IMG/VR virus record: IMGVR_UViG_3300027777_000031
Coordinates: 1-64,000 of that record
DNA from: a virus
Strand: one strand, 5' to 3'
Length of the DNA: 64,000 nt
The notes below the pieces were generated by a model that saw only the letters and a list, made by a program, of their open reading frames with translations, had not been told where the DNA came from and did no database searches. Every line of letters starts with the position of its first letter. Position 1 is the stretch's first letter. Shown here one piece after another: positions 1-64,000 of this stretch. Position numbers and translations under genes: made by a program.

Positions 1-1
1 A

Positions 2-3681: not shown

Positions 3682-3684
3682 AAA

Positions 3685-4464: not shown

Positions 4465-4466
4465 AA

Positions 4467-5796: not shown

Positions 5797-5802
5797 CTAA
5801 TT

Positions 5803-7604: not shown

Positions 7605-7605
7605 A

Positions 7606-9026: not shown

Positions 9027-9029
9027 AAT

Positions 9030-9338: not shown

Positions 9339-9347
9339 AAAAACATA

Positions 9348-11323: not shown

Positions 11324-11763
11324 TACTAATATCTCACAGAGGAAATATAAATGGTAAAAATCCAACAAGAGAAAATTCACCGGATTATATTATGGAAACA
11401 ATATCTATGGGATATGATGTGGAAATAGATATATGGTTAATAGATAACGATTTATTTTTAGGACACGATAATCCACAATATAAAATTGATATTGATTGGT
11501 TAAAAAACAATTCAAATAAATTTTGGATTCATTGTAAAAATATAGAATCATTATTGTTTTTTAAAAAAAATAATTTTGATTTAAATTATTTTTGGCACGA
11601 AAATGATAAAGTAGTCTTAACATCTAAAAAAAATTTATGGGCATATCCTACAGAAAAATTTCATAGTGGAACAATAGCAGTATTACCTGAGTTATTAAAT
11701 TCTATTGTAGATGATTGTGAAGGAATTTGTTCAGATTTTATTATAAATTATAACAAAAAATAA
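11320..11763 (+). CDS. short glycerophosphodiesterase-like protein
   Basis: The protein has 147 residues. It begins ILISHRGNINGKNPTREN, the HRG motif of the glycerophosphodiester phosphodiesterase (PLC-like TIM barrel) family, with VEIDIW giving the ExD metal pair and GHDNPQY the second His. Full enzymes have about 250 residues, so this is a minimal or truncated barrel of a type also seen in capsule clusters. It could act on phosphodiester-linked glycans. The motifs are clear, the activity is not. Confidence 0.6.
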   Translation: MILISHRGNINGKNPTRENSPDYIMETISMGYDVEIDIWLIDNDLFLGHDNPQYKIDIDWLKNNSNKFWIHCKNIESLLFFKKNNFDLNYFWHENDKVVLTSKKNLWAYPTEKFHSGTIAVLPELLNSIVDDCEGICSDFIINYNKK

Positions 11764-11765
11764 TT

Positions 11766-30305: not shown

Positions 30306-31031
30306 TTAGTATCCCAAATAATCGTTTAATTTTTTCATTAAGTCAAGCGATTTGTTTCCGGAATCTCCAACGTGTCTTTCAACACTCATTTTTTTCTCTT
30401 CTTCTAAGTTCTCATCGTATAGATGTTTGTCATCTTTATTTAAGAATAGATATGCTCCCGGAGTTGAAGGTGACGATACTAAGTCAAAACAGATTAATTC
30501 AAAATCATCCTGTACTTCATTTTGTTCCCCAATTTTTTTAAGTGACCCTACACCTCTTGAAGAGATACCTAACGTAACTCCTTGTCTAAGGTAGTTAGCG
30601 GCTAAGTCACCTTTGGTTGACACAATCCCTCTTTCGTGGAATCCCGGTGAAGTAAGTAATTTAATCTTACCCATTAGGACATTACCTTCCCACCATACTT
30701 CAGTGATTGCGTGAGATACTCTATCTAAATCGATTAGAGATGATTCAGGGTGATTTAACTCAGATAGAGCAGTTCCCTTCTTAATCATTTTTTTATAGTT
30801 CTCAGCCTCTCTTTTTAATATACGTTCAGGATATGTTCTACCATTTCTATTTGGGGTGTCATATTTTTGTAATACGGCATAAAATTCAAATGGTTTTGAG
30901 TGGTCTAACATTTCGTTAGATTCTCTAATTAAAGTTTCATTACGAGTATCATTTGGGTTAACATACCCTGCATCGTATTCAACTAATATACCTTTTCCTG
31001 ATTCGTTCGGTTGTAATATTCTTAAACTCAT
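30306..31031 (-). CDS. prohead core protease, T4 gp21-like
   Basis: The protein has 241 residues and the herpesvirus-assemblin-like serine protease fold of phage prohead proteases. Key segments are NRNGRTYPERIL, ALSELNHPESS with the catalytic His, and GVTLGISSRGVGSLK with the nucleophilic Ser, followed by CFDLVSSPSTPGA, where the Asp-x-Val-SxP motif is diagnostic. It matures the prohead by cutting after (I/L)xE in capsid, scaffold and internal proteins. Candidate targets here include the capsid protein (FLINE) and the leader-bearing proteins at 46-54 kb. Confidence 0.85.
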   Translation of the reverse strand: MSLRILQPNESGKGILVEYDAGYVNPNDTRNETLIRESNEMLDHSKPFEFYAVLQKYDTPNRNGRTYPERILKREAENYKKMIKKGTALSELNHPESSLIDLDRVSHAITEVWWEGNVLMGKIKLLTSPGFHERGIVSTKGDLAANYLRQGVTLGISSRGVGSLKKIGEQNEVQDDFELICFDLVSSPSTPGAYLFLNKDDKHLYDENLEEEKKMSVERHVGDSGNKSLDLMKKLNDYLGY

Positions 31032-43670: not shown

Positions 43671-45716
43671 ATGATAGAATCTATGGATGGTGGAAGTAAT
43701 AGTGGAAATAAAGCAGTTAAGACTGACTCATCAACACCCGTATTAGACAATTTTAGTAGAGATTTAATTAAACTTGCCGAAGAGGGTAAACTTGACCCTG
43801 TAATTGGTAGAGAAAGAGAAATCACACGAATCGCCCAAATCCTTTCACGTAGAAAAAAAAATAACCCAATTATCATTGGAGAACCTGGTTGTGGTAAAAC
43901 CGCAATCGTTGAAGGTCTTGCCATTATGATTTATAATGGGGAATGTCCAAGAAACTTAATGGACAAACGTATCGTATCATTAGATATGACATCAATTGTT
44001 GCCGGAACCAAATATCGTGGACAATTCGAAGAAAGAATGAAAGTTATTATTGAAGAACTTCAGAACGCACCGAACATCATTGTATTCATTGATGAAATCC
44101 ACACAATCGTAGGTGCAGGAAATTCGTCAGGTTCAATGGACGCATCAAACATCTTTAAACCGGCACTTGCCCGTGGCGAGATTCAATGTGTTGGAGCAAC
44201 AACCTTAGATGAATACCGAAAAAACTTTGAGAAAGATGGAGCGTTAGAGAGACGTTTCCAAAAAGTTGTGGTGGATTCGGCGACCAAAGAAGAAACTTTG
44301 GAAATCCTTAAAAACGTAAAAGATAAATACGAGAACTTCCATAAGGTAACTTATACGGATGAAGTATTGTCAGTATGTGTTGATTTAGCGGACCGTTACA
44401 TCACCGATAGAGAATTTCCGGATAAAGGGTTTGACATCATTGATGAGGTTGGAGCAAGAAGTCAAGTTGAAATTAAAATGCCAGAATCAATTGAGAAGTT
44501 AAAACAACAAGCCGCAGACATCAAACAAGAAAAAGTGGATGTTGTAAAACAACAACGATATGAGGAGGCAGCAAATCTTCGTGATAAAGAAAAACGCATC
44601 TTAACCAAACTTGAAGTTGAAAAGAAAAAGTTTGAGGAAGAACTTCTTTCACACAAAAAAGAAATCAGTTTGGATTTAGTTTATGAGGTGGTTTCCAATA
44701 TGACCAAAATTCCGGTAACCAAATTAAACGCAGACGAAACCAAATTATTATCTGATATGGAGACAAACCTATCCGATAAAGTTATTGGACAATCTGAAGC
44801 CGTTTCAAAAATTGCAAAATCAATTCGTAGAAACAGAATCGGAATCAAGGACCCAAACAAACCAATCGGTTCATTCATCTTCTTAGGGTCAACAGGTGTT
44901 GGTAAAACATACTTGGCAAAACAACTAGCGAAACAAATGTTCGGTAGCGAAGATAATATGATTCGTGTGGATATGTCCGAGTATCAAGAAAAACACACCA
45001 TTTCAAGATTAATTGGAGCACCTCCGGGATACGTTGGATACGATGAAGGTGGACAATTAACCGAACAAGTGAAAAACAAACCTTATTCTGTAATTCTATT
45101 TGATGAGATTGAGAAAGCCAATAAAGATATTTTTGGAACTCTTCTTCAAGTATTAGACGATGGTCACCTTACCGATGGTATGGGGAGAAAGATTAACTTC
45201 AAAAATTGTGTCATCATTATGACATCAAACGTGGGTGTTAAAAAATTACAGGATTTTGGTTCAGGTGTTGGTTTCAAAACTGGTAATAGTTCTTACGCTG
45301 AAGAAGAGTACAAACGTGAGGTTCTTAAAAAAGAACTTAAAAAATTCTTTACACCTGAATTCTTAAACAGAATTGATGAGGTCGTTATCTTCAACTCTTT
45401 GGTTAAAGAAGATGTTAAGAAAATTGTGACTTTGGAGTTGGATAAATTATCTAAAAGATTGGTTGGATTAAAATATAACATCACATTTGATGAAACTATT
45501 TTAGAATTAATTTCTGAAGTTGGATTTGACGAAACCTATGGGGCTCGACCAATCAAAAGAGCAATCCAAGATAAGATTGAGGATTTTGTATCCGAAGAGA
45601 TTATCAAAGGAAATATGGTGGAGGGTGTTCCATACACCCTTATAACCGTAGATAAAGAAGTGGTGGTTAAATCAGAACCTGTTAAAAAAACAAGAAAGAA
45701 AAAAGAGGATAATTAG
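43671..45716 (+). CDS. ClpC-like AAA+ unfoldase lacking the N domain
   Basis: The protein has 681 residues and two AAA+ modules: Walker A GEPGCGKT (70-77) and Walker B VFIDEIH (138-144) in the first, GSTGVGKT (406-413) and LFDEIE (476-481) in the second. Between them [14 protein letters not shown] (296-309) is a UVR motif, which marks ClpC rather than ClpB or ClpA. VGF at 533-535 lies where ClpC carries its ClpP-binding loop, so it could feed host ClpP. The usual 150-residue N-terminal adaptor domain is missing. It may unfold tagged or host proteins. It has its own host-type promoter and a terminator. Confidence 0.85.
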
Positions 45717-46351: not shown

Positions 46352-46378
46352 CAAAGATACGAAAAAAAAATTAAGCAA
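46352..46378 (-). promoter_or_regulatory. probable host-type promoter, archaemetzincin
   Basis: On the minus strand TTG (46376-46378) is followed after 16 bases by TATCTTTG (46352-46359). The -7 box is perfect; spacing is shorter than the 19 bases seen elsewhere. Confidence 0.5.
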
Positions 46379-47606
46379 CCTCTTCTATTTTAGGTAACAT
46401 TTGACCTAAAGATTCAAGATTAGGACATTGTTGTGAATCTTCACCCATTGCTTTGAAGAATTTATCATTTTGAACTAAATAATTATTTTGAGTTTCACCA
46501 ATAATAAAAACTAACGCACCGACTGCATATGGTCTTGCAATTTTTAAAAAGTCTTCAGGAAGATTAATACAACCATATGATTTGTTAAATTTAGAAGTAC
46601 CTAAATATTGTTCAACAGTTTTTATAAATGAATCCGGAATACTTTCAGATTTTGGTGATGCACTACTACCCATAGCTTTTTTAAGTTCTCGCATTGCTTT
46701 TACTCTTGGAGCTTCATTATAAAATCCGTGAATAGCGTTTGCTAAACTTTCGCCGTCTAAAGTTGTTACATTAAAGATATTATTATCACCACCAACATAA
46801 TCCTCATCAGTTTTTAACGCATTAATAGAATAAATTCCTTTAGGAAAAAATCTTGATTTATTTTTATTTATATAATCGTAAATTAATTCCTTATCATATT
46901 TTTTACCACCACCAGTTTTATCTTTATATTCTTGTGATTTCACATCATATTTAAAACCCGCAGCATTGGCATATTCGTCCCAAGACCATAATGCTTTAGC
47001 TATTGATTTAGCGTCTTGAGATTGAGCATTTAACCCATCTATCGTATATGATTTAGCAACAAAATCGCCTTTTTTGTTAAACAAATAAATGTTATTATCT
47101 CTTGTATCAATAACGAAAAAATTTCTATTACTAAATTTAGGTCGTATACCAACATATGAAATTTCACAAGCACTTCTTACAGGAACACCATTAGAAATTA
47201 ATTCTCCACCAACTTTTTGATATTGACTCATTTTTGTCAAATCAACCCCTTTAGTACTAGGTATTGAAGGACAAAAATTTTGAGATGTTTTATCATCTTT
47301 TTTAATTGGTGTTTCAGGTTTTTTAATTTGCATAGTCTTATCACCAATAACTTGTTTAATACTAGTTATTGATTTATGATTTTTAGCCTCTTTCCAATTA
47401 GGGTACTTGTCACCATATTTTGTATTTTCTTTACCTTTAAAATAATATTTACCATTTTCAAATTTATAATCATACGCATTATCGTGGTCAGTAACTATAA
47501 TTGGAGACACACCTTGTTCACTTAAATAGTGACGTTTAGTTGCACTTTCGTGAAGATTTAATATTCTATTTTTTTCTTCTTCGTTAATTATAAATAAATT
47601 TTTCAT
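46371..47606 (-). CDS. L,D-transpeptidase-like protein with conserved N-terminal leader
   Basis: The protein has 411 residues from the ATG at 47606; the longer frame upstream lies inside the next gene. Residues 1-30 form a leader (EEEKNRILNLHES at 9-21, then YLSE at 27-30) shared with other proteins nearby and ending in a predicted prohead-protease site after Glu30. The C-terminal region has KSYGCINLPEDF, the SxGCINxxxxD active-site motif of YkuD-type L,D-transpeptidases, with Cys as nucleophile. The middle contains FFVIDTRDNNIYLFNKKGDF, the typical strand start of that fold. It may modify or cut peptidoglycan on entry. Confidence 0.7.
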   Translation of the reverse strand: MKNLFIINEEEKNRILNLHESATKRHYLSEQGVSPIIVTDHDNAYDYKFENGKYYFKGKENTKYGDKYPNWKEAKNHKSITSIKQVIGDKTMQIKKPETPIKKDDKTSQNFCPSIPSTKGVDLTKMSQYQKVGGELISNGVPVRSACEISYVGIRPKFSNRNFFVIDTRDNNIYLFNKKGDFVAKSYTIDGLNAQSQDAKSIAKALWSWDEYANAAGFKYDVKSQEYKDKTGGGKKYDKELIYDYINKNKSRFFPKGIYSINALKTDEDYVGGDNNIFNVTTLDGESLANAIHGFYNEAPRVKAMRELKKAMGSSASPKSESIPDSFIKTVEQYLGTSKFNKSYGCINLPEDFLKIARPYAVGALVFIIGETQNNYLVQNDKFFKAMGEDSQQCPNLESLGQMLPKIEEVA

Positions 47607-47607
47607 A

Positions 47608-48426
47608 TTATTTCGGAGTTGTTGGGGTATAACCCTTAAATTCAGGGAATGATTTAGCTTTGAACTGTGAACCCGCAGCTGTCGGTGCTCCCGCAGTTGG
47701 TGGATTAGTTCCAGCACCCGGTTGCCCTATTAAATCATTGATATCGATTTCAGAATATCCTGAACCTCCACCAGCAGCTACACCACTATTTTCTGTACCG
47801 GTTTTTTGACCTCCGGTATTAGCACCTGTAGTTTGAGCACCTGTTGATGCACCTTGAACACCAGTTTCAGCGGTTTTCTTAATTGCTGCCGATGACGCGT
47901 CGGTAGTATTGTTGGTTGGTTGAGTTGTAGTAGTTGTTGTGGTTGCGTTTGTATCTGTTTTTGGTAAATTTTGTAATGACGATAAAATACTTGCAGATGT
48001 TTTAGGTCCATATTTACCATCCGGAGTTAATCCGGCTTGAGATTTTGTATTTAATAAAGTTTGTAATTCAACAATTGAAGGGTATTTAACCCCTATTTTA
48101 ATAGGTGTCACTGGTGGTGGTGGTGTTGTTGCTGCCGGTGGAGTAGTTCCTGCAGCTGTTGGTGGAGTAGTTCCTGCTGCTGTTGGTGGAGTAGTTCCTG
48201 TGTTAGCACCTGTAACACCACCAATTTCTACACCAGGTTTAGACCCACCAATCGTATTTAGAGATTGTTTAATAGCATCAACCACTTTTGGGTCTAAATT
48301 TCCATAATTCCCTGAGTCAATGTTTCCAGCAATAGTTTTAACATCCTGTTCAGAAATAACAATACCTCTTTTATACCCCAAAAGGTATTTCATATTTTCA
48401 ATTTCTTTTAATATATTTTTTTTCAT
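47608..48426 (-). CDS. peptidoglycan-binding-domain protein with leader
   Basis: The protein has 272 residues. Its leader, MKYLLGYKRGIVISEQ at about 12-27, ends with a possible prohead-protease site ISE (24-26). Residues about 110-155 contain VELQTLLNTKSQAGLTPDGK and YGPKTSASI, a classic PG_binding_1 domain. Flanking regions are low complexity, rich in Thr, Ala, Pro and Gly, including three tandem PPTAAGTT units. It lies one base from the transpeptidase-like gene and overlaps the next, so the three form one unit, probably virion-borne cell-wall proteins. Confidence 0.6.
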   Translation of the reverse strand: MKKNILKEIENMKYLLGYKRGIVISEQDVKTIAGNIDSGNYGNLDPKVVDAIKQSLNTIGGSKPGVEIGGVTGANTGTTPPTAAGTTPPTAAGTTPPAATTPPPPVTPIKIGVKYPSIVELQTLLNTKSQAGLTPDGKYGPKTSASILSSLQNLPKTDTNATTTTTTTQPTNNTTDASSAAIKKTAETGVQGASTGAQTTGANTGGQKTGTENSGVAAGGGSGYSEIDINDLIGQPGAGTNPPTAGAPTAAGSQFKAKSFPEFKGYTPTTPK

Positions 48427-49142
48427 TATCTTGGTCTATTTGCGTTTGCTTGTAATTGTTTTATTGCATCATTAAGTTGGTCTGAAGTCATACCAACTTG
48501 TTGTTGTGCTTGAGCGATACCTCCAGCGGGTGTTCCTGTTGTTGGAGTTGTTGTCCCAGCAGCAGCTGCTGGTGGTGTTGTAACCTCTGATTTAGGAGTA
48601 TCTTGTGGTTTACCATTTAATTTTTCATTAATTTTTTGTAACAAACCGGAATCCATAATACCTGTTTCAGGTAAACCTAAGAATTTTTGAATAGCCTTAG
48701 TATTTTCAGTTGTTTTAGCAACAATTTGTTGTTTATATTGTTGTAATTTTTTTGCCTTGTCATCAGTTGTTACCGCAGTTTTAAATTCAGGGTCATTACA
48801 AGAATATTTTTCAGATTTATTATTGGCAACAGGTTGTTTACGTTTATAACCATTATTATAATACACATAACCTTTTATTATATATGCTGTCGACCCGTCT
48901 GATAATTTAGTTGGTTTAACCCCTTGACTAGGGACACACGAATATATTCCTTCCCAATTTTTTTCTCTAGCAAGACCATCTTTCTTACCAGCACCTGCTT
49001 GAGCATTAAATCCAAGTGGATTATTTGGTATTGCTCCAAATGGTGAAGTTTGTTCATTCAAATATTGACGTTTTGTTGCACTCTCGTGAATATTTAAAAT
49101 TCTATTTTTTTCTTCTTCGTCTAAGAAATATAATTTTTTCAT
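48426..49142 (-). CDS. leader-bearing protein with PG-binding-like segment
   Basis: The protein has 238 residues. The leader EEEKNRILNIHESATKRQYL ends with LNE at 28-30, almost identical to that of the gene at 46371-47606. A central domain (GIYSCVPSQGVKPTKLSDGS) has two Cys, and IQKFLGLPETGIMDSGLLQK resembles half of a peptidoglycan-binding domain. The end is Thr/Ala/Gly rich. It starts the three-gene unit and has an ATATTTATAAATA motif upstream. A virion or injected location is inferred from the leader. Confidence 0.55.
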   Translation of the reverse strand: MKKLYFLDEEEKNRILNIHESATKRQYLNEQTSPFGAIPNNPLGFNAQAGAGKKDGLAREKNWEGIYSCVPSQGVKPTKLSDGSTAYIIKGYVYYNNGYKRKQPVANNKSEKYSCNDPEFKTAVTTDDKAKKLQQYKQQIVAKTTENTKAIQKFLGLPETGIMDSGLLQKINEKLNGKPQDTPKSEVTTPPAAAAGTTTPTTGTPAGGIAQAQQQVGMTSDQLNDAIKQLQANANRPR

Positions 49143-49177: not shown

Positions 49178-49195
49178 AAGAGACCGAAGTCTCTT
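49178..49195 (-). terminator. terminator of the M20 peptidase gene
   Basis: AAGAGAC / GTCTCTT with a CGAA loop; identical to the hairpin at 45753-45770. The stop codon of the gene overlaps it. Confidence 0.65.
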
Positions 49196-50015
49196 AGAAT
49201 AAATTTTTAAATTTTGGTTCTGATTTATATTGGTATTTCTGATATCCCAATCCTTCAATCATTTTTTTACCAGTTTCAATTCCATTATAAACATCCTCAA
49301 CTACAACATATTCATTTCTTGTGTGATAGTCGTAATAACCTATTGCAAAATTGATACAGGCAAAATCAAAAGTATTCTTTAATGCGTAAACATCGGTATA
49401 AGGGTTTGAGAAGTATTCTTGTTCCCCATTGAAACTCTCGTTTAACACATTATTACAAGTCTCAAAGAACTCACTATCTCTTTCAAATAATCTTGTTCCC
49501 ATACAAACTTCAGTAACCATTCTATTACCCGGAGCGTCAAACTGAATCCCATAACCAACATTCATAAAGAAGTTTGGGTCGGCTTTTTTAGACCCGTGAC
49601 ATCCGGTTTCTTCTGATACGAAAAATGCTGCTTTCAGATTTGGTAATTCTTTTAATAATTCCAAACACGCATAAACACCACATTTATCATCACCACCAAT
49701 TCCGGTTGGTTCATCAAAATCGTTATAAGCCTTTAAAGCCGGTTTAATTTCATACTGACTATTCTGTAACATTTCCTCACGAATATTGATTGAGTCAATA
49801 CTATGAACTGTATCAGTGTGAGCTATTACGCAAGGGAAGTAATCGACAAATTCATCCGTTTGTTTAACAGCGTAAATATTGTAATGTTCATCCACATTGA
49901 AGGGAATCCCATTTTCTTCTAACCAATTGGTTATAAATTCAACCATAAGGTCTTCTTGATAAGTTTTTGTCGGAATTGACAAAACCTCTTTTAATAATTC
50001 GTAATTTCTTTCCAT
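49194..50015 (-). CDS. M20-family metallopeptidase
   Basis: The protein has 273 residues. It has the M20 zinc pattern: IAHTDTVH (first His and Asp), TGIGGDDKCGVYA (bridging Asp) and FFVSEETGCHGS (catalytic Glu-Glu), the layout of peptidase T-like aminopeptidases. The dimerisation insert present in most M20 enzymes appears reduced, so the protein is short. It is cytoplasmic, with no signal. It could recycle peptides released by proteolysis during infection. A TATATTTG box lies just upstream. Confidence 0.75.
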   Translation of the reverse strand: MERNYELLKEVLSIPTKTYQEDLMVEFITNWLEENGIPFNVDEHYNIYAVKQTDEFVDYFPCVIAHTDTVHSIDSINIREEMLQNSQYEIKPALKAYNDFDEPTGIGGDDKCGVYACLELLKELPNLKAAFFVSEETGCHGSKKADPNFFMNVGYGIQFDAPGNRMVTEVCMGTRLFERDSEFFETCNNVLNESFNGEQEYFSNPYTDVYALKNTFDFACINFAIGYYDYHTRNEYVVVEDVYNGIETGKKMIEGLGYQKYQYKSEPKFKNLF

Positions 50016-51451: not shown

Positions 51452-51482
51452 TTTGGATTTATCCAAAAATGTATTATCTTTG
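51452..51482 (+). promoter_or_regulatory. host-type promoter of the tmRNA gene
   Basis: TTTG at 51452-51455, 19 bases, then TATCTTTG at 51475-51482. This is a perfect flavobacterial housekeeping promoter. The predicted start falls about 7-14 bases before the mature tmRNA end at 51497. Confidence 0.8.
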
Positions 51483-51496
51483 TGGTATCAAAATAT

Positions 51497-51890
51497 GGGA
51501 GCGACACGGAATTGATTATTAGTAATAGTTATTCGGGGCACGTAGTGAGATGTTCTCTATCACTTAAATCTATGGGTACAACAATTTAGACGGAAACGTT
51601 TTAAACAAAATGGCTCTAGTAGGTCTTGTACGTCAAGACGAGCTTGTGAACGTAGCGTAAGCAAACTCACATTGGGGTCGGTGGACATATAACCCAGCAA
51701 CAGGAGTCCCTACAAAGGTGTGGTACCTATCCGAAAAGGTACAAGTGGAGGATTAGTTCTCAGTAAACCAAACCACTCTAAAAATAAGGGAATTGTGAAA
51801 TTTTGGATTGTTAGCTTAAACAATATCCTAAACGTGTAGTCCTTAATAGGTAGTACAAATAAGACCGGAGTTCGAGTCTCCGCGCTTCCA
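51497..51890 (+). ncRNA. ssrA: transfer-messenger RNA (tmRNA)
   Basis: The gene gives an RNA of 394 bases that rescues stalled ribosomes with SmpB. The 5' end GGGAGCG pairs over 7 bp with CGCTTCC (51883-51889), followed by discriminator A; CCA is not encoded. The T arm is CGGAG-TTCGAGT-CTCCG. The 3' third carries the characteristic string GTGTAGTCCTTAATAGGTAG, similar to E. coli tmRNA. A tag reading frame opens at GGA (51592) after TTAGAC and ends at TAA (51658-51660), giving 22 residues ending LVNVA. The stop lies next to a helix GTGA/TCAC, as in other tmRNAs. It has its own promoter and terminator. Confidence 0.92.
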
Positions 51891-51926
51891 CTTCCACCGG
51901 AGAGTCCCGACACCTCCATCAAAAGA

Positions 51927-51950
51927 AAAACCCATCATATGATGGGTTTT
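51927..51950 (+). terminator. tmRNA terminator
   Basis: AAAACCCATCA and TGATGGGTTTT are a near-perfect 11-bp stem around TA, followed by TTT. It works in both directions and could also end the minus-strand transcript from 51978-52343. Confidence 0.8.
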
Positions 51951-51977
51951 TTTGTTATCAGTTCAAATGTTTATTTT

Positions 51978-52343
51978 TTAATCTTGTAGTAAATCCTTTG
52001 ATACCGGAGTTACATTTAATTTATTTATTAATTTATCAAATCTTGAATCCATAATTCTATATACTTCATCAAAACCTTTATGTGTTTCGTCAGCTCTAGC
52101 ATTAATATACCTATTTGTTTCCGTATATAATTCGTCTGTTCGTTTAATCTCACCATCTATACGACGATGTAGTTCCTCACTTACTCTGTTTATATCATTA
52201 AAGATAAGTCCTTGTACTTGTTCCAATTGGGAACATTTTGATTTTAATCTTTTAATTTGAATGTACATCATAACCACAACTCCAACTCCCAGTATCCCGA
52301 GAACCAAACCTATACCCATAATGAACGATGTTAAATCTACCAT
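51978..52343 (-). CDS. membrane-anchored coiled-coil protein
   Basis: The protein has 121 residues. Residues 6-30 (SFIMGIGLVLGILGVGVVVM) form one transmembrane helix, and the remainder is a long charged coiled coil (INRVSEELHRRIDGEIKRTD). N-out/C-in topology is suggested by the basic residues after the helix. It resembles small phage spanin-like or membrane tether proteins in form only. It lies between the tmRNA gene and a leader-bearing gene. Confidence 0.6.
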   Translation of the reverse strand: MVDLTSFIMGIGLVLGILGVGVVVMMYIQIKRLKSKCSQLEQVQGLIFNDINRVSEELHRRIDGEIKRTDELYTETNRYINARADETHKGFDEVYRIMDSRFDKLINKLNVTPVSKDLLQD

Positions 52344-52396
52344 AATTTCTTTTTTTTATTTGTTTATTATTGAACTGATAATTAAGTATAATAAAA

Positions 52397-52420
52397 AAAG
52401 GGACTATTTCAAGTCCCTTT
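52397..52420 (-). terminator. terminator of the gene at 52442
   Basis: AAAGGGACT / AGTCCCTTT form a perfect 9-bp stem around ATTTCA with A/T runs on both sides. Confidence 0.7.
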
Positions 52421-52441
52421 ATTATATAGTATTTTTATATT

Positions 52442-52903
52442 TTAATTTTCGTCATCATCAAACATTCCCATTTCATCACCCCAAGATTGTAAAAAATCTT
52501 GTTCTTCTTCGTGGCTAGGTTCCTCATCATCTTTAGTATATTCCCAAGCTTGAACTTCATTCTTAAATTTATTAAATGAAAAATTAATTTCGTCTAAATC
52601 AAAACCTAATTTATAATCATTAAAAACATTTTTCATATCATCTTTAATGTTATGTTTCATATATCCAACCATAACTTTGAAATACTTACGTAAATGATTT
52701 TCATTAAATGGTTCTCCAATAACTTCATCTAAAACGTGTTGGAAATGAGCGTCTATATAAAACTCCCAAGCTTTAGATAATGTTAAAACTTTTTTGTTTG
52801 AACCTAAACTATCATCTTCTTTAATCACATTTTTTTTACCTGAGTGCATCTCAAGGATTCTATTTTTCTCTTCTTGAGAAATGTTATTTAACAAATTTTT
52901 CAT
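52442..52903 (-). CDS. small acidic protein with conserved leader
   Basis: The protein has 153 residues. The leader ISQEEKNRILEMHSGKKNVI ends with IKE at 27-29, a good prohead-protease site, and the mature part begins DDSLGSNKKV. The rest is helical with a Glu/Asp-rich C-terminus (EEPSHEEEQDFLQS and FDDDEN). The leader is almost the same as that of the gene at 53479-53886. It probably is packaged in the head. The function of the mature part is unknown. An ATATATTTAT motif precedes it. Confidence 0.55.
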   Translation of the reverse strand: MKNLLNNISQEEKNRILEMHSGKKNVIKEDDSLGSNKKVLTLSKAWEFYIDAHFQHVLDEVIGEPFNENHLRKYFKVMVGYMKHNIKDDMKNVFNDYKLGFDLDEINFSFNKFKNEVQAWEYTKDDEEPSHEEEQDFLQSWGDEMGMFDDDEN

Positions 52904-52946
52904 ATTATTAGTTTTTTATTATAAATATATTAAAATTAAAAAAAAA

Positions 52947-53384
52947 TCATTTCAAGTCTCTTTTCATATCTCTATCAATGTCCCGAGATTTTATACTATC
53001 TCGTTTATCGTGGAGTTTTTTCCCTTTGGCAAGAGCAATCTCCATCTTAACTAATCCGGTGTCATTTATGAAGACACGATAAGGAATGATGGTTGTCCCG
53101 TTGATTAACTCACTCTCCAACTTATTCAGTTCTTTTCTCTTGGCTAATAGTTTTCTATCCTTAACGGTCTCGTGGAATGACCCAAACCCATAATCTGAGA
53201 TGTTCATTCCTTTAACAAATAACTCATTATTATTGAAATAACAATAACTTTCCGAGATGGAGACCTTTCCCTGACGGATGGATTTCACTTCTGAACCAAC
53301 TAGTTTGATTCCCACAATTAAAGTTTCCAAGAAGGAATATTCAAACTTGGCTTTCTTATTGACTATGTTAATTGATTTTTTCAT
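52947..53384 (-). CDS. smpB: SmpB, tmRNA-binding protein
   Basis: The protein has 145 residues from the ATG at 53384; the in-frame ATG at 53432 is not used because the promoter lies between them. SmpB marks are NKKAKFEYSFLETLIVGIKL, VGSEVKSIRQGKVSISESY, the conserved GMNISDYGFG loop, and the C-terminal ALAKGKKLHDKRDSIKSRD then RDMKRDLK. It brings tmRNA to stalled ribosomes and its tail reads the empty mRNA channel. The tmRNA gene lies 1.1 kb away. Length is normal (about 150). Confidence 0.92.
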   Translation of the reverse strand: MKKSINIVNKKAKFEYSFLETLIVGIKLVGSEVKSIRQGKVSISESYCYFNNNELFVKGMNISDYGFGSFHETVKDRKLLAKRKELNKLESELINGTTIIPYRVFINDTGLVKMEIALAKGKKLHDKRDSIKSRDIDRDMKRDLK

Positions 53385-53478: not shown

Positions 53479-53886
53479 CTATCTAGGTCCTAAATCATAT
53501 TCATTATCATCTTCATCTTCATCATCATTACTATCTTCAACAGGAGTCACACTTAGTATGTTAAATCTTTTAGAAAATTTAGGAATTTTTGTTACATTAA
53601 TTATAGATGAACTACTTCCAAATTCTGTTGAGTATCTTACTATCACTTTCTCATCATTACTATCTTCAACAGGATTTACACTTCGTATATTAAATCTTTT
53701 AGAAAATTTAGGAATTTCTTTTACATCAATTATAGATGAACTACTTCCAAATTCTGTTGAGTATCTTACTATTACTTCCACACTTTCATTTATTGTTTCT
53801 TTAGTAATAATACTCTTTTTATTTGAGTGCATCTCAAGTATTCTATTTTTTTCACCTTGTGATATATCATTAAATAAATTTTTCAT
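53479..53886 (-). CDS. leader-bearing protein made of two tandem 43-residue repeats
   Basis: The protein has 135 residues. The leader ISQGEKNRILEMHSNKKSII matches that of the gene at 52442 and leads to INE at 32-34, a possible prohead-protease site. The mature part is two nearly identical repeats with VIVRYSTEFGSSSSII and IPKFSKRFNI, then an acidic end (DSNDDEDEDD). The repeat has no known family; its strand-rich pattern suggests a small beta domain. It probably is an internal head protein. Confidence 0.6.
   Translation of the reverse strand: MKNLFNDISQGEKNRILEMHSNKKSIITKETINESVEVIVRYSTEFGSSSSIIDVKEIPKFSKRFNIRSVNPVEDSNDEKVIVRYSTEFGSSSSIINVTKIPKFSKRFNILSVTPVEDSNDDEDEDDNEYDLGPR
53522..53779 (-). 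repeat. tandem duplication, 129 bp x 2
   Basis: The units 53522-53650 and 53651-53779 are direct repeats, in frame (43 codons), with only a few differences. They duplicate the whole mature domain of the gene at 53479-53886, indicating a recent event. Confidence 0.85.
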
Positions 53887-53919: not shown

Positions 53920-53953
53920 AAAAAAGGTGATACAAATTAATGTACCACCTTTT
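53920..53953 (-). terminator. terminator of the large RNA
   Basis: On the minus strand AAAAGGTG-GTACA and TGTAT-CACCTTTT pair around TTAATT and are followed by a run of T. It marks the 3' end of the RNA. Confidence 0.78.
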
Positions 53954-54834
53954 GGCTTAATACGATGAGAATACTCGTCTTATTGAGAATCTTCGGAAGC
54001 ATTATTTTTTCGCTTCTTTTCCACCATCTTTTGAATGGTAATCCTCATTGCCGATTGGTTAGACCAATCACTCCTTGAGATATCATCTACTCTCTCATTA
54101 TTCAACTCTCTTCAATCTTGCGAACTGACTCCGGATTCGACTCCGTAGAGGTTTTTGGCGAGAATACATTCAGACTTGCGGTCATCCTGTGCAACGAACG
54201 GCTCGTTACTATGTAGGCAACTTGTCGACGATACCTGACAGACACTTTTGCTCTTTTCTGTTTAGTTTTTCACCATATTGAAAATAGTTAACGTGTTGTG
54301 GATGTGTCCAAGTAGAGGTCTGTCTTAGGCTTCATCATCTTTTGGACGAAGAAATACCAACCTACTCGGTAGAGTGTCCCCACTCTCATATTTTAAGAAT
54401 TCTTCAAATCAAAATCTTGGTAGATGTTTGATAAGGATAATGACAGCACCACCTGTTACTTATCTTGTCTTTCGACTTTAAGATTTCTCTCATATTGGAA
54501 CCCGCAATAATTAAGTTGGATAACCTAACTTCTTACTTGATTCCTATCACTTATTCCTGTTGGAGTTCCCCCCTCAACCGAAAGACCCACATCTCCCGGT
54601 CACCCAACCACTTTCTCTAAAGCGTCGCCCTCAATACTGAAGGTCAGATGGTATGTGACTTGTATACTCGAGTCCCATTTCTGAGACCGCAAACCTGTTA
54701 ACACAACAGATTCACTTTAGCCCGGTTTCCCGGTTTATTTAAGGATGATATACCACCCATTATCGTTTTTATAATACCTAAGTACTATATGGATAATCTA
54801 AAATGTTTAAGAACGTTTTGAGGTTTCCCTCATT
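53920..54834 (-). ncRNA. large structured noncoding RNA (about 0.9 kb)
   Basis: No credible reading frame spans this 915-base stretch, while a host-type promoter lies just upstream and a terminator at its end, both for the minus strand. The RNA would begin with the hairpin TGAGGGAAACCTCA (a GNRA-type loop). Many local hairpins are visible, such as GATTGGT/ACCAATC, CTAC/GTAG, AGAGT/ACTCT, GAAGC/GCTTC and CTGTT/AACAG. GC content is higher than in the flanks. Size, phage setting and proximity to tRNA-like genes fit the GOLLD or ROOL class of giant RNAs, but I cannot confirm the class. It is not RNase P RNA. Confidence 0.75.
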
Positions 54835-54841
54835 TGTTTTA

Positions 54842-54872
54842 CAAAGGTAAGTGATTTTTTTGAGAAGTCAAA
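54842..54872 (-). promoter_or_regulatory. host-type promoter of the large RNA
   Basis: On the minus strand TTTG (54869-54872), 19 bases, TACCTTTG (54842-54849): a perfect match to the flavobacterial consensus. It defines the 5' end of the RNA near 54834. Confidence 0.8.
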
Positions 54873-55341: not shown

Positions 55342-55346
55342 TTTTG

Positions 55347-55438
55347 TGGTATCGGCAGGGTTCGAACCTACGGCACAGAGTCTTTCGTTACTCCTGCTCT
55401 ACCAAAGGAAGACGAATCCCCCACTGAGCTACAATACC
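55347..55438 (-). tRNA. tRNA-like RNA with 19-base D-loop insertion (unit 2)
   Basis: The order is normal and the acceptor stem perfect (GGTATTG / CGATACC, discriminator A). The D stem is GCTC/GAGC, but the loop has 26 bases, about 19 more than normal, between AGT and GGTA. The anticodon stem GGAGT/ACTCT holds an 8-base loop AACGAAAG without U33, so the anticodon cannot be assigned (GAA or CGA are possible). The T arm is GTAGG-TTCGAAC-CCTGC. It is 92 bases long; CCA is not encoded. Confidence 0.65.
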
Positions 55439-55449
55439 ATTATAAGTTA

Positions 55450-55524
55450 GTGGACGTATGCTCTACCATCTGAGCTACAGCTTTTAATCACCGGAGGGAT
55501 TTGAATCCTCGACACAACGTCCAC
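55450..55524 (-). tRNA. tRNA-like RNA with permuted halves (unit 1)
   Basis: On the minus strand the order is GTGGACGT (55517-55524), variable bases, T arm with ATTCAAAT loop (55494-55511), CGGTGATT, then AAAAGCTG, TA, D arm GCTCAGATGGTAGAGC (55460-55475), A, and finally ACGTCCAC (55450-55457). The 8-bp match between the ends closes what would be the anticodon stem; the acceptor ends are joined by a short loop and pair over only about four positions. The upstream promoter is only about 40 bases away, so there is no room for another 5' half. A decoding function is doubtful. Confidence 0.55.
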
Positions 55525-55562
55525 CTATATTTTCAATAATTTTAAGAACTTTATTTCTTCTA

Positions 55563-55594
55563 CAAAGATAATACTTTTATTTTAATATATCAAA
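55563..55594 (-). promoter_or_regulatory. host-type promoter of the tRNA-like cluster
   Basis: On the minus strand TTTG (55591-55594), 20 bases, TATCTTTG (55563-55570). The transcript would start near 55556, about 30 bases before unit 1. Confidence 0.7.
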
Positions 55595-55753
55595 TTATTT
55601 TAAAAATAATTTTATTAATTGAGTTAATCCTCCCATACAACATATTCCCGCACAAAAATAACTAAATCCGGGATTTCTACCATTCTCTTTTTGTGTTTTT
55701 GCGGAGAATAGGTTTAATCCCATCAATCCGAATTGTAATAATACTATTTCCAT
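55595..55753 (-). CDS. small hypothetical protein with hydrophobic segments
   Basis: The frame encodes 52 residues, starting MEIVLLQFGLMGLNLFSAKT and ending with a hydrophobic, Cys-containing stretch YFCAGICCMGGLTQLIKLFL. It may be a small membrane-associated peptide. Its 3' end touches the -33 element of the tRNA-like cluster promoter. The start has no Shine-Dalgarno, normal here. No family is recognised. Confidence 0.45.
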   Translation of the reverse strand: MEIVLLQFGLMGLNLFSAKTQKENGRNPGFSYFCAGICCMGGLTQLIKLFLK

Positions 55754-55775
55754 AATTTTTATAATTTAATGTTTG

Positions 55776-55848
55776 TAGTCAGGACAGGACTCGAACCTGT
55801 AACTTTATTCCACTACACGGTTTGCGTCTACCATTCCGCCACCTGACT
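55776..55848 (-). tRNA. tRNA-like RNA with Leu-type D arm and unpaired anticodon arm (unit 4)
   Basis: The RNA is 73 bases. The acceptor stem AGTCAGG/CCTGACT is perfect with discriminator A, the T arm is ACAGG-TTCGAGT-CCTGT, and the D arm GCG-GAATGGTAGA-CGC is like that of tRNA-Leu. Positions 27-31 (AACCG) and 39-43 (GAATA) do not pair, and there is no long variable arm as a Leu tRNA would need. An alternative register with CC/GG gives a GTA triplet in the loop, but most of the stem is mismatched. The isotype cannot be assigned. Confidence 0.6.
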
Positions 55849-58809: not shown

Positions 58810-61800
58810 ATGTCTGATATTTCTAATCAATTAATTAAGGATTCATATAATTATGTCCTACAATCTGACCTATCAACCGGTAATATTTACCGTATTGGTG
58901 GGGGTATTCCCGTTAATCCAATATTTTTATCCGGATTAACAATTATCTCAAGTTTTAAATTTTCAAATGGTTCTGAAAGAGCAGGATATGTTTTAACATC
59001 AGATGGTTCAGGTAATGCAACTTGGAGTCCTGTTTCAAATCAAAAAATAATATTAAAAAAAATTGATTTAGGCACTAGATTAATTAATGGATTGGGTAAT
59101 GTTGTAGTTAATTTAGTTAATGTTTGGGATAGGTTAACTAATTCTATTATTGGTAAACAACTTTACTATTCCGGAGTTAAAGTTGATTATTATTTTACTT
59201 ACAATAATCCAAATAATGGTATTAGAACTAAAGAATTATGGACAACTCAAACATTTAATGTAAATCTCAATACATCATTTGCGTTTAGTGGTATTTGCAA
59301 TTATATTAGTCAAAATTATGAAACAACATTAGTGAATTTTTATTGTGAAATTTATTTAAATTTAAATCAAAATTATTTATCTCCAACACAAGTTAGATTA
59401 ACCAATCCACTATTTAATTCATTAAATCCGTACAAATATAGTAGAGGTAAAAATTATACAGGTGAGGCTGAGTTTGTACGAAGTAATAATAACTTACCAA
59501 AATCATTGAATTCTATTGAAAATAATTTTATAAATGGCTGGCAATATTATTACGACGTTGGAGCTTCAAAAGATATTGTGAAAAAAGTATATGATATAAT
59601 TTCAACACCTGAATTTTATGGTCCATTCTCGGCAGAGTCACAGTCAATATTAATTTTTGACACTCCATATTCAAATGAAAGTAGAGAGGTTATTAAAAAT
59701 AGTGTCTATGTTGAAACTTTAACCGGATTTTATTCAAAATTTAAAATACCGGTAAATCAACACGGATTTTTCGAATCTTGTGTAAAATTATTTAATAATT
59801 TTTATGGTAATTTATTGTATGATATTGTTAGTGGCTCTACACCTACAATTAATAGTCACGCATCAATAGATGGGTATAATTCATCATCATTCTATCAAAT
59901 GATTGACACTTATCGTATTTACCCCAAAGGAACACCAGGAATAATTTATTACACGGTTAATTTTAAATTAAATGATTTACTTTTTTCAATGGGAATAGAT
60001 AAACATCTAAAATATATTGGAAAATTTAGACAAAAGTCATATGTTCAAGTATTGCCGTATTATCAAAACGTTTATATATTAAAAATAAGTGTTAATGGGG
60101 ATAATAATCCACTATTATTTATTAATAATTTAATTAATAATTATCTTCAAATTAATGACTCGTCACTAAAAAGTAAAATCATCGATAACACCCCTAATCC
60201 TTATTGGACTAACGGGAATTATGGTTATATGGCTAATGAAAATTATTTTTATAATTATAACCCTTATGGTCCGTATTTGGTAATTCAATCAACGGATGAA
60301 AAGATGTATCAACTATCTCAAAACCCAATTTATACTGCGAGTAGTGTGGATACCATTTATATTGGGGGTGGTTTTACTAATTATAATCACAACGGAGCAA
60401 ATTATATTATTAACTTAAATACGGATGGCTCAGTTAATTCCACATATAATTCAGGATTTGATAGTTATGTTCAGGTAATTGTAATACAATCAGACAATAA
60501 ACTATTAGTTGGCGGTAATTTTTATAGTTATAACGGAACCGGAGCAAGTAGAATTATTAGATTAAACTCAGATGGTTCAGTTGATTCATCATTTGTTTAT
60601 GGTTCGGGATTCAATGGTAAAACAACTGTTCAAACAATTGCAATACAATCAGATAATAAAATATTGGTTGGCGGTGGTTTTAATAATTATAACGGAACCG
60701 GAGCAAATTATATCATTAGATTAAATTCAGACGGTTCGGTTGATTCATCATTTGTTTATGGTGATGGATTTGATGACCTTGTTAATATAATTACAATACA
60801 ATCAGATAATAAAATATTGGTTGGCGGTGGTTTTAATAATTATAACGGAACCGGAGCAAATAGAATTATTAGATTAAACTCAGACGGTTCGGTTGATTCA
60901 TCATTTGTTTATGATGATGGATTTGATAGTGATGTTCAAACAATTGTAATACAATCAGATGGAAAAATATTGGTTGGAGGTTATTTTAGGAATTATAACG
61001 GAACCGGAGCAAATAGAATTATTAGATTAAACTCAGACGGTTCGGTTGATTCATCATTTGTTTATGGTTCGGGATTTGATAACCTTGTTAATATAATTAC
61101 AACACAATCAGACAATAAAATATTGGTTGGTGGTTATTTTAATAGTTATAACGGAACCGGAGCAAATTATATCATTAGATTAAACTCAGATGGTTCAATT
61201 GATTCATCATTTGTTTATGGTTCGGGATTTGATAACCTTGTTAATATAATTACAACACAATCAGACAATAAAATATTGGTTGGTGGTTATTTTAATAGTT
61301 ATAACGGAACCGGAGCAAATTATATCATTAGATTAAACTCAGACGGTTCGGTTGATTCATCATTTGTTTATGGTGATGGATTTAATACGTTTGTTCAAAC
61401 AATTGCAACTAAAGTAATAACAAATTCAATTAATGTTGACGCAATTTATAAAGGAACATCATTTAAACCATTTATTTATCCATTAAATTTAAATCAATTA
61501 ACTTTAGAAGTTCCGGTAACAGATGATAATAATCAGTTTTTTATGGATGGAACCAAAGAATTAAGATTTATAATAAAATATATTAAATTACAACAATATG
61601 ATGTTTCAACGGCACAAATAAAAGTAACAACTATTAGAAATGAAACTTCTGATAATAAATTTTTTACATTAACCCTATCTACGAATGACTCATTTGAAAG
61701 CACTGTTTTAGGTGAAATAAGTCATACTAATCGAAAACAATTTAGACCTGGAAATGTTGAAATATATTTATCATTTTTTGATACCAATACTAATGAAACA

Positions 61801-61893
61801 AGTTTAATACCGAATTATAAAATAATCATTGCAAAATATGGTGATAATGAGGTATTTAAATTAATAAAGGGTCCAAACGTTATCAATATTTAA
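58810..61893 (+). CDS. tail fibre / adhesin with seven-blade propeller repeats
   Basis: The protein has 1027 residues. The first 80 resemble a fibre attachment segment (GGGIPVNPIFLSGLTIISSF, then SDGSGNATW). A long Asn/Tyr-rich region follows to about 510. Residues about 516-865 contain seven repeats of roughly 51 residues with LVGGYFNSYNGTGAN and IIRLNSDGSVDSSFV, which match the delta-60 type repeat of Bacteroidota surface proteins and would form a beta propeller. The C-terminal 160 form a beta domain. No signal peptide is present. It is probably a receptor-binding fibre. Confidence 0.7.
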   Translation: MSDISNQLIKDSYNYVLQSDLSTGNIYRIGGGIPVNPIFLSGLTIISSFKFSNGSERAGYVLTSDGSGNATWSPVSNQKIILKKIDLGTRLINGLGNVVVNLVNVWDRLTNSIIGKQLYYSGVKVDYYFTYNNPNNGIRTKELWTTQTFNVNLNTSFAFSGICNYISQNYETTLVNFYCEIYLNLNQNYLSPTQVRLTNPLFNSLNPYKYSRGKNYTGEAEFVRSNNNLPKSLNSIENNFINGWQYYYDVGASKDIVKKVYDIISTPEFYGPFSAESQSILIFDTPYSNESREVIKNSVYVETLTGFYSKFKIPVNQHGFFESCVKLFNNFYGNLLYDIVSGSTPTINSHASIDGYNSSSFYQMIDTYRIYPKGTPGIIYYTVNFKLNDLLFSMGIDKHLKYIGKFRQKSYVQVLPYYQNVYILKISVNGDNNPLLFINNLINNYLQINDSSLKSKIIDNTPNPYWTNGNYGYMANENYFYNYNPYGPYLVIQSTDEKMYQLSQNPIYTASSVDTIYIGGGFTNYNHNGANYIINLNTDGSVNSTYNSGFDSYVQVIVIQSDNKLLVGGNFYSYNGTGASRIIRLNSDGSVDSSFVYGSGFNGKTTVQTIAIQSDNKILVGGGFNNYNGTGANYIIRLNSDGSVDSSFVYGDGFDDLVNIITIQSDNKILVGGGFNNYNGTGANRIIRLNSDGSVDSSFVYDDGFDSDVQTIVIQSDGKILVGGYFRNYNGTGANRIIRLNSDGSVDSSFVYGSGFDNLVNIITTQSDNKILVGGYFNSYNGTGANYIIRLNSDGSIDSSFVYGSGFDNLVNIITTQSDNKILVGGYFNSYNGTGANYIIRLNSDGSVDSSFVYGDGFNTFVQTIATKVITNSINVDAIYKGTSFKPFIYPLNLNQLTLEVPVTDDNNQFFMDGTKELRFIIKYIKLQQYDVSTAQIKVTTIRNETSDNKFFTLTLSTNDSFESTVLGEISHTNRKQFRPGNVEIYLSFFDTNTNETSLIPNYKIIIAKYGDNEVFKLIKGPNVINI
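60355..61400 (+). repeat. seven in-frame 153-bp repeats
   Basis: Seven copies of about 51 codons, the first two divergent and the last two almost identical at DNA level (only scattered changes over 150 bases). They encode the propeller blades of the fibre protein and indicate recent duplication or gene conversion. Confidence 0.85.
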
Positions 61894-61992
61894 GACCCAT
61901 AATGAGGTGATGTCCGTTAAGGATAATGAGTTACCGTAAAAAGGGGGTAGTTGTTATTAATATTCTATCCCCATATTTTTAAAAAAAAATTA

Positions 61993-64000
61993 ATGAGATA
62001 TAATATTAAACTAAATTGGGGTTACTCAACCGATGTTAAACCAATAACATCACAAATTGGTGATAGATTTTTAGAAATCGATACTCAATTAGAATATGTA
62101 TTTTTAGATTACAATCAGTGGAGTTTAATAGGTTCAAATACAAACACATTCTCCGGTGGAACCGTTTCAGGTGCAACCAATTTTACAAACGGTTTAAGTG
62201 CTAACACAATATCGGCAACAACTTATTATAATTTACCACAAGATATTTATGTTACCGGAGGTACCTATTCATCAGGAACAGCGATATTTACTAACAATAC
62301 CGGAGGAACATTTAATGTTACAGGTTTTAAAACAAATGATGTTTTTGTAACAGGAGGTACATATTCAGCAGGAACAGCAATATTTACTAACAATACCGGA
62401 GGAACATTTAATGTTACAGGTTTTAAAACAAATGATGTTTTTGTAACAGGAGGTACATATTCTAATAACAAATTTACCTACACTAATAATACAGGTGGAA
62501 CTTTTAGCGTATTATTCAATACGGTTACGGGATTAACAATCAATGGTGATTTAACTGTTACCGGAAATACATCACTACAATCGTTAAGTGCAAGAACAAT
62601 ATCCGCAACAACTTATTATAATATTCCAATTAAATATTATGCAGAATATTCGGGTTCACCAACGACATCACCAATTGTTTTATCAACCAATAGTATTGCT
62701 ATTGGAGATGGTGCTCAAGCAAATAGTTCTTCTATGTTTGTTGTGGGTTTAAATGTCGGTTATCAATCAACGGGTGTTACAGGCTCAAACTTTATTGGTC
62801 AAAATGCCGGTCAACAAGCATCAAATTCAAGTAATTCAAATTTCTTTGGTGTAAATTCCGGTTATCAAGCGTCAAATTCAAACGATTCAAACTTTATTGG
62901 TAGACAATCAGGTTATCAATCAACAGGTACAACTTACTCAAACTTTATAGGTTATTCTGCCGGTCAACAAGCATCAAATTCAAGTTATTCAAATTTTATT
63001 GGTCAAAATTCCGGTTATCAAGCAACAAGTTCAATTTATTCAAACTTTATTGGTATACAATCAGGTTATCAATCAACAGGTGTTACATCCTCAAACTTTA
63101 TTGGTTTTAATGCCGGTTATGTAGCGTCAAATTCAAGTTATTCGAATTTCTTTGGATATCAATCGGGTCAACAAGCATCAAATTCAACTTATTCAAATTT
63201 CTTTGGTCAAAATTCCGGTTATCAAGCGTCAAATTCAACTTTTTCAAATTTTATTGGTCAAAATTCCGGTTATCAATCAACAGGTACAACTAACTCAAAC
63301 TTTATTGGTCAAAATGCCGGTTATGTAGCGTCAAATTCAACTTTTTCAAATTTTATTGGATTTCAATCGGGTCAACAAGCATCAAATTCAAGTTATTCAA
63401 ATTTCTTTGGTGTAAATTCCGGTTATCAAGCGTCAAATTCAAACGATTCAAACTTTATTGGTAGACAATCAGGTTATCAATCAACAGGTACAACTTACTC
63501 AAACTTTATAGGTTATTCTGCCGGTCAAGGAGCAACAGTTTCAAGTAATTCAAATTTTATTGGTCAAAATGCCGGTTATCAAGCAACAGGTGTAACTAAC
63601 TCAAATTTCTTTGGTTTTCAATCAGGTCAAGGAGCAACAGTTTCAAGTTATTCAAACTTCTTTGGTCAAAAATCAGGTTTCTTGGCTACAGGGGTAACTT
63701 ATTCAAACTTCTTTGGTTACCAAGTTGGTTCAGGTATGACGGGTACTAATAATATTATAATTGGGACAAATATTTCATTACCAATCAATACAAATAACTC
63801 TATTAACATAGGTGGTGTTTTATTTGGTACCGGTGCATATAGTACAACATCAGGTAATCCATTTACTGGTGCAACAAGTACAGGTAAAATTGGTATTAAT
63901 GTTGTCACACCATCAGAGGCCTTACACGTATCAGGAAATACATTAGTTCAAGGTTCTTTAACCGCAAATACAATATCAGCAACAACATATCAAAACTTAC
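61993..64000 (+). CDS. tail fibre protein with 17-residue repeats, cut by window end
   Basis: The frame is open from the ATG at 61993 to the end (669 codons). It starts RYNIKLNWGYSTDVKPITSQ, followed by three tandem 32-residue units (VTGGTYSSGTAIFTNNTGGT). From about residue 250 come some 20 repeats of 17 residues of the form SNFIGQNSGYQASNSTY, giving a probable left-handed beta-helix or collagen-free fibre shaft. Near the end IGINVVTPSEALHVSGNTL is the hinge found before C-terminal intramolecular chaperone domains in fibres. The tip lies outside the window. Confidence 0.72.
   Translation, partial: MRYNIKLNWGYSTDVKPITSQIGDRFLEIDTQLEYVFLDYNQWSLIGSNTNTFSGGTVSGATNFTNGLSANTISATTYYNLPQDIYVTGGTYSSGTAIFTNNTGGTFNVTGFKTNDVFVTGGTYSAGTAIFTNNTGGTFNVTGFKTNDVFVTGGTYSNNKFTYTNNTGGTFSVLFNTVTGLTINGDLTVTGNTSLQSLSARTISATTYYNIPIKYYAEYSGSPTTSPIVLSTNSIAIGDGAQANSSSMFVVGLNVGYQSTGVTGSNFIGQNAGQQASNSSNSNFFGVNSGYQASNSNDSNFIGRQSGYQSTGTTYSNFIGYSAGQQASNSSYSNFIGQNSGYQATSSIYSNFIGIQSGYQSTGVTSSNFIGFNAGYVASNSSYSNFFGYQSGQQASNSTYSNFFGQNSGYQASNSTFSNFIGQNSGYQSTGTTNSNFIGQNAGYVASNSTFSNFIGFQSGQQASNSSYSNFFGVNSGYQASNSNDSNFIGRQSGYQSTGTTYSNFIGYSAGQGATVSSNSNFIGQNAGYQATGVTNSNFFGFQSGQGATVSSYSNFFGQKSGFLATGVTYSNFFGYQVGSGMTGTNNIIIGTNISLPINTNNSINIGGVLFGTGAYSTTSGNPFTGATSTGKIGINVVTPSEALHVSGNTLVQGSLTANTISATTYQNL
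62251..62538 (+). repeat. three tandem 96-bp repeats
   Basis: Copies start at 62251, 62347 and 62443, each encoding 32 residues. The first two are nearly identical, the third diverges in its second half. They lie at the base of the fibre shaft. Confidence 0.8.
62740..63740 (+). repeat. about twenty 51-bp in-frame repeats
   Basis: Each unit encodes 17 residues with conserved SNF(I/F)G and a G(Y/Q) pair. A block of several units starting at 62848 recurs at 63409, exactly 561 bp (11 units) later, which shows segmental duplication within the shaft. Confidence 0.85.

Follow-up and report, generated by a model that had tools for sequence, protein, structure and literature searches.

The phage DNA studied here likely encodes (probability of about 0.7) an intact trans-translation system with a tag of its own, which probably feeds a phage ClpCP protease, and the GOLLD RNA lies in the same gene cluster. 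The genes, their promoters, the charging pair, the selection acting on the tag and the linkage are shown by the analyses presented below. Activity, timing, the ClpCP destination and the role of GOLLD are inferred; this reading rests on sequence, with no expression or biochemical data.

The window, i.e., the whole stretch of DNA that was analysed, comprises bases 1 to 64,000 of an IMG/VR virus record of 89,863 bp. It is phage DNA, as shown by the virus record itself and by a T4-like set of virion genes that includes the gp23 capsid, the gp20 portal, a terminase and an S77 prohead protease. The virus is a large phage of Bacteroidota bacteria, and the record is likely incomplete, the whole genome being assumed to measure about 310 kb. 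The features considered are the following.

30306-31031: S77 (gp21-like) prohead protease
43671-45716, + strand: ClpC-type double-AAA+ unfoldase of 681 aa without N domain (Pfam, PDB match)
49194-50015, - strand: M20/M42-type peptidase, conserved between clpC and tmRNA
51452-51482, + strand: Bacteroidota-type promoter of the tmRNA (-33 TTTG, N19, -7 TATCTTTG)
51497-51893, + strand: one-piece tmRNA (ssrA), Rfam RF00023
51592-51660, + strand: tag-coding frame within the tmRNA, GNVLNKMALVGLVRQDELVNVA followed by a stop, with resume codon GGA after UAGAC
51926-51951, strand not given: terminator hairpin 3' of the tmRNA
52947-53384, - strand: smpB, 145 aa, SsrA-binding protein, PF01668
53389-53419, - strand: Bacteroidota-type promoter of smpB, whose -7 box is separated from the ATG by 4 nt
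53922-54836, - strand: predicted full GOLLD transcript of about 915 nt, from promoter and terminator
53962-54369, - strand: GOLLD RNA, Rfam RF02032 region, full model 1-416
54842-54872, - strand: GOLLD promoter, TTTG-N19-TACCTTTG (variant)

tmRNA, tag peptide and SmpB

The tmRNA matches the full RF00023 model (positions 1-374) at E 2.9e-27, its score of 74.9 bits exceeding the gathering score of 47. When 24 diverse relatives were compared, two-sided compensatory changes were found in 22 of the 35 predicted pairs; the tRNA-like part and PK1 both covary, and the T-arm is intact. PK1 lies directly 5' of the tag/resume codon, with stem 1 formed by AGUGA/UCACU (GGAGA/UCUCC in a divergent clade) and a covarying stem 2 (e.g., UGUAUU/AAUACA and UGAAUU/GAUUCA). 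The alanine identity pair G3-U70 is G-U in 24 of 24 tmRNAs (column 4-495), among which G1, G2 and the discriminator A73 (A394) are invariant. In the window the discriminator A is at 51890, and the CCA is not encoded here, while some relatives do encode it. Judging by its sequence, the tmRNA looks intact and alanine-chargeable; charging and tagging in cells are inferred.

ARAGORN was rejected as a detector for these tmRNAs, since it makes no call for the one in the window nor for any GOLLD-neighbouring phage tmRNA scanned. Because of this, ARAGORN-based surveys of phages undercount such tmRNAs, including the one in which tmRNA was reported in about 2% of 18,146 phage genomes (PMC9004378). A BLAST search of the window tmRNA against INPHARED returned no match.

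The tag has 22 residues (GNVLNKMALVGLVRQDELVNVA) and ends in ...DELVNVA. Its frame presents a pN/pS of 0.49, while the shifted frames give 0.91 and 1.21, so the frame is real and under purifying selection. The tag family follows G-x-[VIT]-[LI]-x-K-[ML]-x-x-[VIL]-G-L-[VIL]-R...A, seen in tmRNAs down to 50% identity, and the last residue A is retained across all tags; those of relatives include GNVLDKMSAVGLIRAEEVVVA, GETIAKLSAVGLIRSEEVVTA and GDVLSKMETLGLLRESEVTVA. A search for the motif across the rest of the window found it in the tmRNA alone. The Bacteroidota genomes with the nearest SmpBs carry 9-residue tags, e.g., GENNYALAA and GESNYAMAA. Given the phage tag ends in NVA, not LAA, degradation of tagged proteins by any Clp machine is unproven.

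Long tmRNA tags also occur in other huge phages, namely at L431 (LR756504; candidate DNVNSFEQSILNELFAPVEMAVAA) and L090 (G047), and these two cases leave room for the idea that long tags are a wider feature of huge-phage tmRNAs.

The smpB coding sequence spans 52950-53384 (- strand), with a probable start ATG at 53384 and the stop codon at 52947-52949. Its product is full-length, matching PF01668 over profile positions 2-142 of 143 (161 bits, E 2.2e-47), and PDB SmpB chains match it with E down to 8.7e-33. In the alignment, the conserved residues N9, E32, K34, GKK 121-123 and H125-DKR are retained, and the residues that contact tmRNA and the ribosome are present, including the basic C-terminal tail, with no binding data. 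The protein is of the Bacteroidota type, the nearest bacterial SmpBs being 57-60% identical. In the tree, 19 phage SmpBs form one phage-only group within Bacteroidota sequences (support 93/84), with other phage SmpBs placed elsewhere.

The phage SmpB belongs to PHROG phrog_6791 (129 bits), which is labelled 'unknown function' and can be named as SmpB. Two apparent phage smpB genes in INPHARED were not counted: the one of Acinetobacter is surrounded by ordinary bacterial chromosome genes, and the one of Staphylococcus sits at the end of its record.

The Bacteroidota promoter consensus consists of a -33 TTTG and a -7 TAnnTTTG. Four perfect copies, TTTG-N17-21-TATCTTTG, are present in the 64 kb, against 0.23 expected, and none of 100 shuffles reached four. 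All four are inside 51.4-56.3 kb, before the tmRNA, smpB, a tRNA-Thr unit and ORF 56001. The sigma-70 consensus, in contrast, presented no excess in the scan (17 found against 23.9 expected). The tmRNA promoter is kept upstream of the tmRNA in relatives, and in nearly all close relatives just 4 nt separate the -7 box of smpB from its start codon; from this promoter geometry, the smpB mRNA is predicted to be leaderless.

A sequence-only reading of the window had claimed a complete tmRNA with a tag frame and a full-length SmpB, less than 2 kb apart on opposite strands and each behind a perfect host-type promoter. All of this held, considering the RF00023 and PF01668 matches, the actual distance of 1,053 nt, the promoter scan and the pN/pS values. 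Loss of the charging determinants, which that reading had named as refuting, was not observed. Its span of 51497-53384 is right for both genes and leaves out GOLLD (53962-54369, - strand) and the ClpC gene; the GOLLD, ClpC and ClpP context was missed. The linkage it proposed to look for in related contigs was found, as described next.

GOLLD RNA and its linkage to smpB and tmRNA

Directly upstream of smpB lies GOLLD, which scores 298.8 bits against a cut-off of 150 (RF02032). A strong terminator hairpin is located at 53953-53922, and the predicted transcript of about 915 nt has a fold z-score of -6.6. Many GOLLD members are longer than 800 nt. In about 20 other, distinct phage GOLLDs, a promoter of the same type precedes the conserved core by about 795-900 nt.

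A scan of viral contigs yielded 63 loci with a related SmpB, for which 49 records were searched whole. The tmRNA exceeded the cut-off in 35 of these records and GOLLD in 37, and the order GOLLD>smpB<tmRNA is present in 30. GOLLD is upstream of smpB and co-directional with it in every one of the 37 records having both. The gap between the two measures 73-80 nt in 16 of the 37; in most of these 16, the T-run of the GOLLD terminator enters the -33 box of smpB. In L042-44 and L064, sister phages that lack GOLLD, no other Rfam RNA was found in the region upstream of smpB.

A separate scan for GOLLD by DNA pattern added 74 further records. The tmRNA exceeded the cut-off in 31 of them, in 30 of which it faces GOLLD at 0.2-1.3 kb. 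GOLLD and tmRNA thus face each other in 60 phage records in total, of which 30 do not belong to the smpB set, and relatives without a detected smpB still have GOLLD beside the tmRNA. The GOLLD-linked tmRNAs range down to 50% identity and form about nine clusters at 80%. A permuted tmRNA with GOLLD (G162) was not counted, as the tmRNA was not found in the 12 kb around GOLLD.

These counts do not represent many independent events. The phages examined have a syntenic block in common with the window (clpC, the peptidase and the 50061 protein), and because the neighbours tested share this one block, the tmRNA-GOLLD linkage mostly reflects one deep lineage. In a reverse control, GOLLD was found in just 1-2 of 50 phage contigs retrieved by the canonical tmRNA pattern, by which a general tmRNA-GOLLD association across phages was rejected. 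Many GOLLD records, isolate prophages included, show no tmRNA. Both results indicate GOLLD is not a constant companion of phage tmRNA.

The GOLLD-smpB pair is also found away from the tmRNA, in G019-G023; in G021, the tmRNA is in the clpC block, and GOLLD and smpB are together 194 kb away. In L413, which has no other window gene in common, GOLLD ends 105 nt upstream of smpB. In L414, which carries a distinct SmpB lineage, GOLLD precedes smpB by 1.7 kb in the same orientation, and the smpB promoter is of the same type. In LR756502 (642 kb) and LR745206 (635 kb), clpC comes after GOLLD at 5.4 and 1.9 kb, respectively.

GOLLD has been described as a phage-borne RNA found near tRNA islands, which forms a 14-mer RNA nanocage; its binding to ribosomes, seen in pull-down, has been reported as well (PMC12286853). 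The RNA in the window agrees with that description in its full-model match to RF02032, its phage genome and the tRNAs nearby; cage assembly is inferred for it. It differs in context, since tRNA islands were the earlier setting, whereas here there is a conserved smpB/tmRNA/clpC neighbourhood. No report of GOLLD linked to phage tmRNA, SmpB or such a neighbourhood was found in the open-access literature searched.

As to the tRNAs themselves, their genes number 22 and account for nearly every amino acid (window 55346-55848 and record 64001-83000); 20 of them form one - strand array at 71.1-80.2 kb of the record.

ClpC, ClpP, other genes of the window and known systems

The unfoldase contains the Pfam domains AAA, AAA_lid_9, AAA_2 and ClpB_D2-small, and its best PDB match is ClpC (E 1.5e-225). 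Its gene is about 6 kb from the tmRNA. By alignment, GVGF occupies the position of the ClpP-binding loop ([IVL]GF), with no binding data. Of 23 related records, 12 encode ClpP. Eight records larger than 280 kb were tested, and ClpP is present in seven, all but G063; the catalytic Ser/His/Asp of the relatives' ClpP are apparently in place. ClpP was not found in the window's own 89.9-kb record, a presumed genome fragment. It is possible that ClpC handles tagged proteins, which is inferred, and the M20/M42-type peptidase can be only tentatively included in the module, by position alone. Compared with the ClpCP protease, the window protein matches ClpC best and relatives encode ClpP, yet the phage version lacks the N-terminal adaptor domain, is phage-borne and is not known to accept the GNVLNKMALVGLVRQDELVNVA tag.

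The ClpC-type unfoldase is among the best conserved genes of the block, with 72-86% identity in relatives, and at L410 and L411 clpC is just downstream of GOLLD, in two phages of 635-642 kb.

Other genes of the window were observed as well. Sugar-nucleotide and glycosyltransferase-like genes lie in a row at positions 1-13641, with epimerases, an aminotransferase and a nucleotidyltransferase among them, as read from the ORF list only. Two long repetitive proteins with units 'DGSVDSSFVYGDGF' and 'SNFIGQNSGYQ' are at 58810-63999; on the basis of the ORF list only, these are likely tail fibre or adhesin genes. Four otherwise unlike proteins (46371-47603, 48426-49142, 52442-52903 and 53479-53886, all on the - strand) have a common N-terminal 'EEKNRILxxH' followed by an [LI]xE site, and the motif has 49 occurrences across 27 retrieved loci. 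Given the S77 protease, this resembles a cleaved capsid-targeting peptide, and the four may be internal head proteins.

The tmRNA-SmpB pair alone is not new, because pairs in huge phages have already been published (PMC7162821). Both partners occur in Lak and other huge phages, and the sequence-only claim that a phage carrying both is uncommon must be qualified to that extent. What is new relative to the known pairs is the divergent selected tag, the linked GOLLD and the phage ClpC/ClpP. The huge and Lak phages are alike in encoding both partners (PMC7162821), but in Lak-C1 and LR756504 tmRNA and smpB are hundreds of kb apart and GOLLD was not found, whereas the two genes here are closely clustered with GOLLD in a conserved arrangement. 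Mycobacteriophages and phage G likewise carry a tmRNA (PMC4131195); unlike here, only ssrA is described in the sections of that paper bearing on these phages, and the phage G tag, AKLNITNNELQVA, differs from that of the window. In comparison with bacterial trans-translation, the one-piece tmRNA with G3-U70, TLD, PK1 and a tag ORF, and the SmpB of Bacteroidota type, are shared features. The differences are the phage genome, genes about 1 kb apart, a tag of 22 residues instead of 9 with no LAA end, a phage smpB predicted to be leaderless, and the adjoining GOLLD.

Proposed mechanism and rival explanations

Under the main reading, the phage would make its own alanine-chargeable tmRNA and SmpB during infection, from host-type promoters, and their complex would free ribosomes stalled on broken mRNAs. 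The latter adopts, as an inferred proposal, the sequence-only suggestion that the pair keeps ribosomes free. The 22-residue phage tag would be added instead of the host 9-residue LAA/MAA tag; redirected tagging, also suggested before, is supported by a distinct, selected tag as against the host 9-mers, with tagging itself inferred. Tagged fragments would probably be destroyed by the phage ClpC-type unfoldase, with phage ClpP in the jumbo relatives. GOLLD might act on stalled or surplus ribosomes, or store the rescue complex.

The first rival, which remains possible, is that the tag does not serve for degradation: in competition with the host tmRNA, the phage tmRNA would give unfinished proteins a neutral or targeting tag, with phage proteins shielded from host ClpXP or Lon, or tagged chains delivered elsewhere. 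In its favour, the tag lacks the host LAA/MAA end, and its inner conserved K[ML]xx[VIL]GL[VIL]R is not needed by a simple C-terminal degron. Against it, a ClpC-type unfoldase is kept nearby, ClpP is present in large records, and the terminal A is kept in all tags.

The second rival holds that GOLLD beside smpB and tmRNA is inherited synteny or an RNA-gene island (tRNAs, tmRNA, GOLLD) without any functional link. It is supported by the known location of GOLLD near phage tRNA genes (PMC12286853), by the single syntenic block common to the tmRNA-GOLLD phages and by the low reverse control. The balance tips slightly against it, however, given that GOLLD and smpB are paired apart from the tmRNA in G019-G023 (194 kb apart in G021), that GOLLD precedes smpB in the otherwise unrelated context of L413 and the distinct SmpB lineage of L414, that it stays beside the tmRNA in relatives without a detected smpB, and that it is followed by clpC in the two phages of 635-642 kb.

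A third rival, in which the phage acquired these genes recently from its host or uses them as decoys, with no role in trans-translation (e.g., a tRNA-like domain titrating host SmpB), is very unlikely: although mycobacteriophage DS6A does carry a tmRNA made up of the TLD alone (PMC4131195), here there is a full tmRNA with a selected tag frame, covarying helices and PK1, and SmpB and tmRNA are kept over deep divergence, each with its own promoter.

A bolder version of the main reading can be put forward only as a possibility: the GOLLD nanocage would be a working part of phage ribosome rescue, capturing or sheltering ribosomes or tmRNA-SmpB, while the phage tag routes stalled products to phage ClpCP. 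If true, this would constitute a self-contained, orthogonal protein quality-control pathway. What GOLLD does is an open question: the cage of this giant RNA is larger than a ribosome, and the RNA is reported to be recovered with ribosomes in pull-downs (PMC12286853). That it remains linked to smpB, tmRNA and clpC in many phages offers a testable hypothesis on its function. The long selected tag and the phage ClpC/ClpP, in turn, suggest phages can run orthogonal trans-translation.
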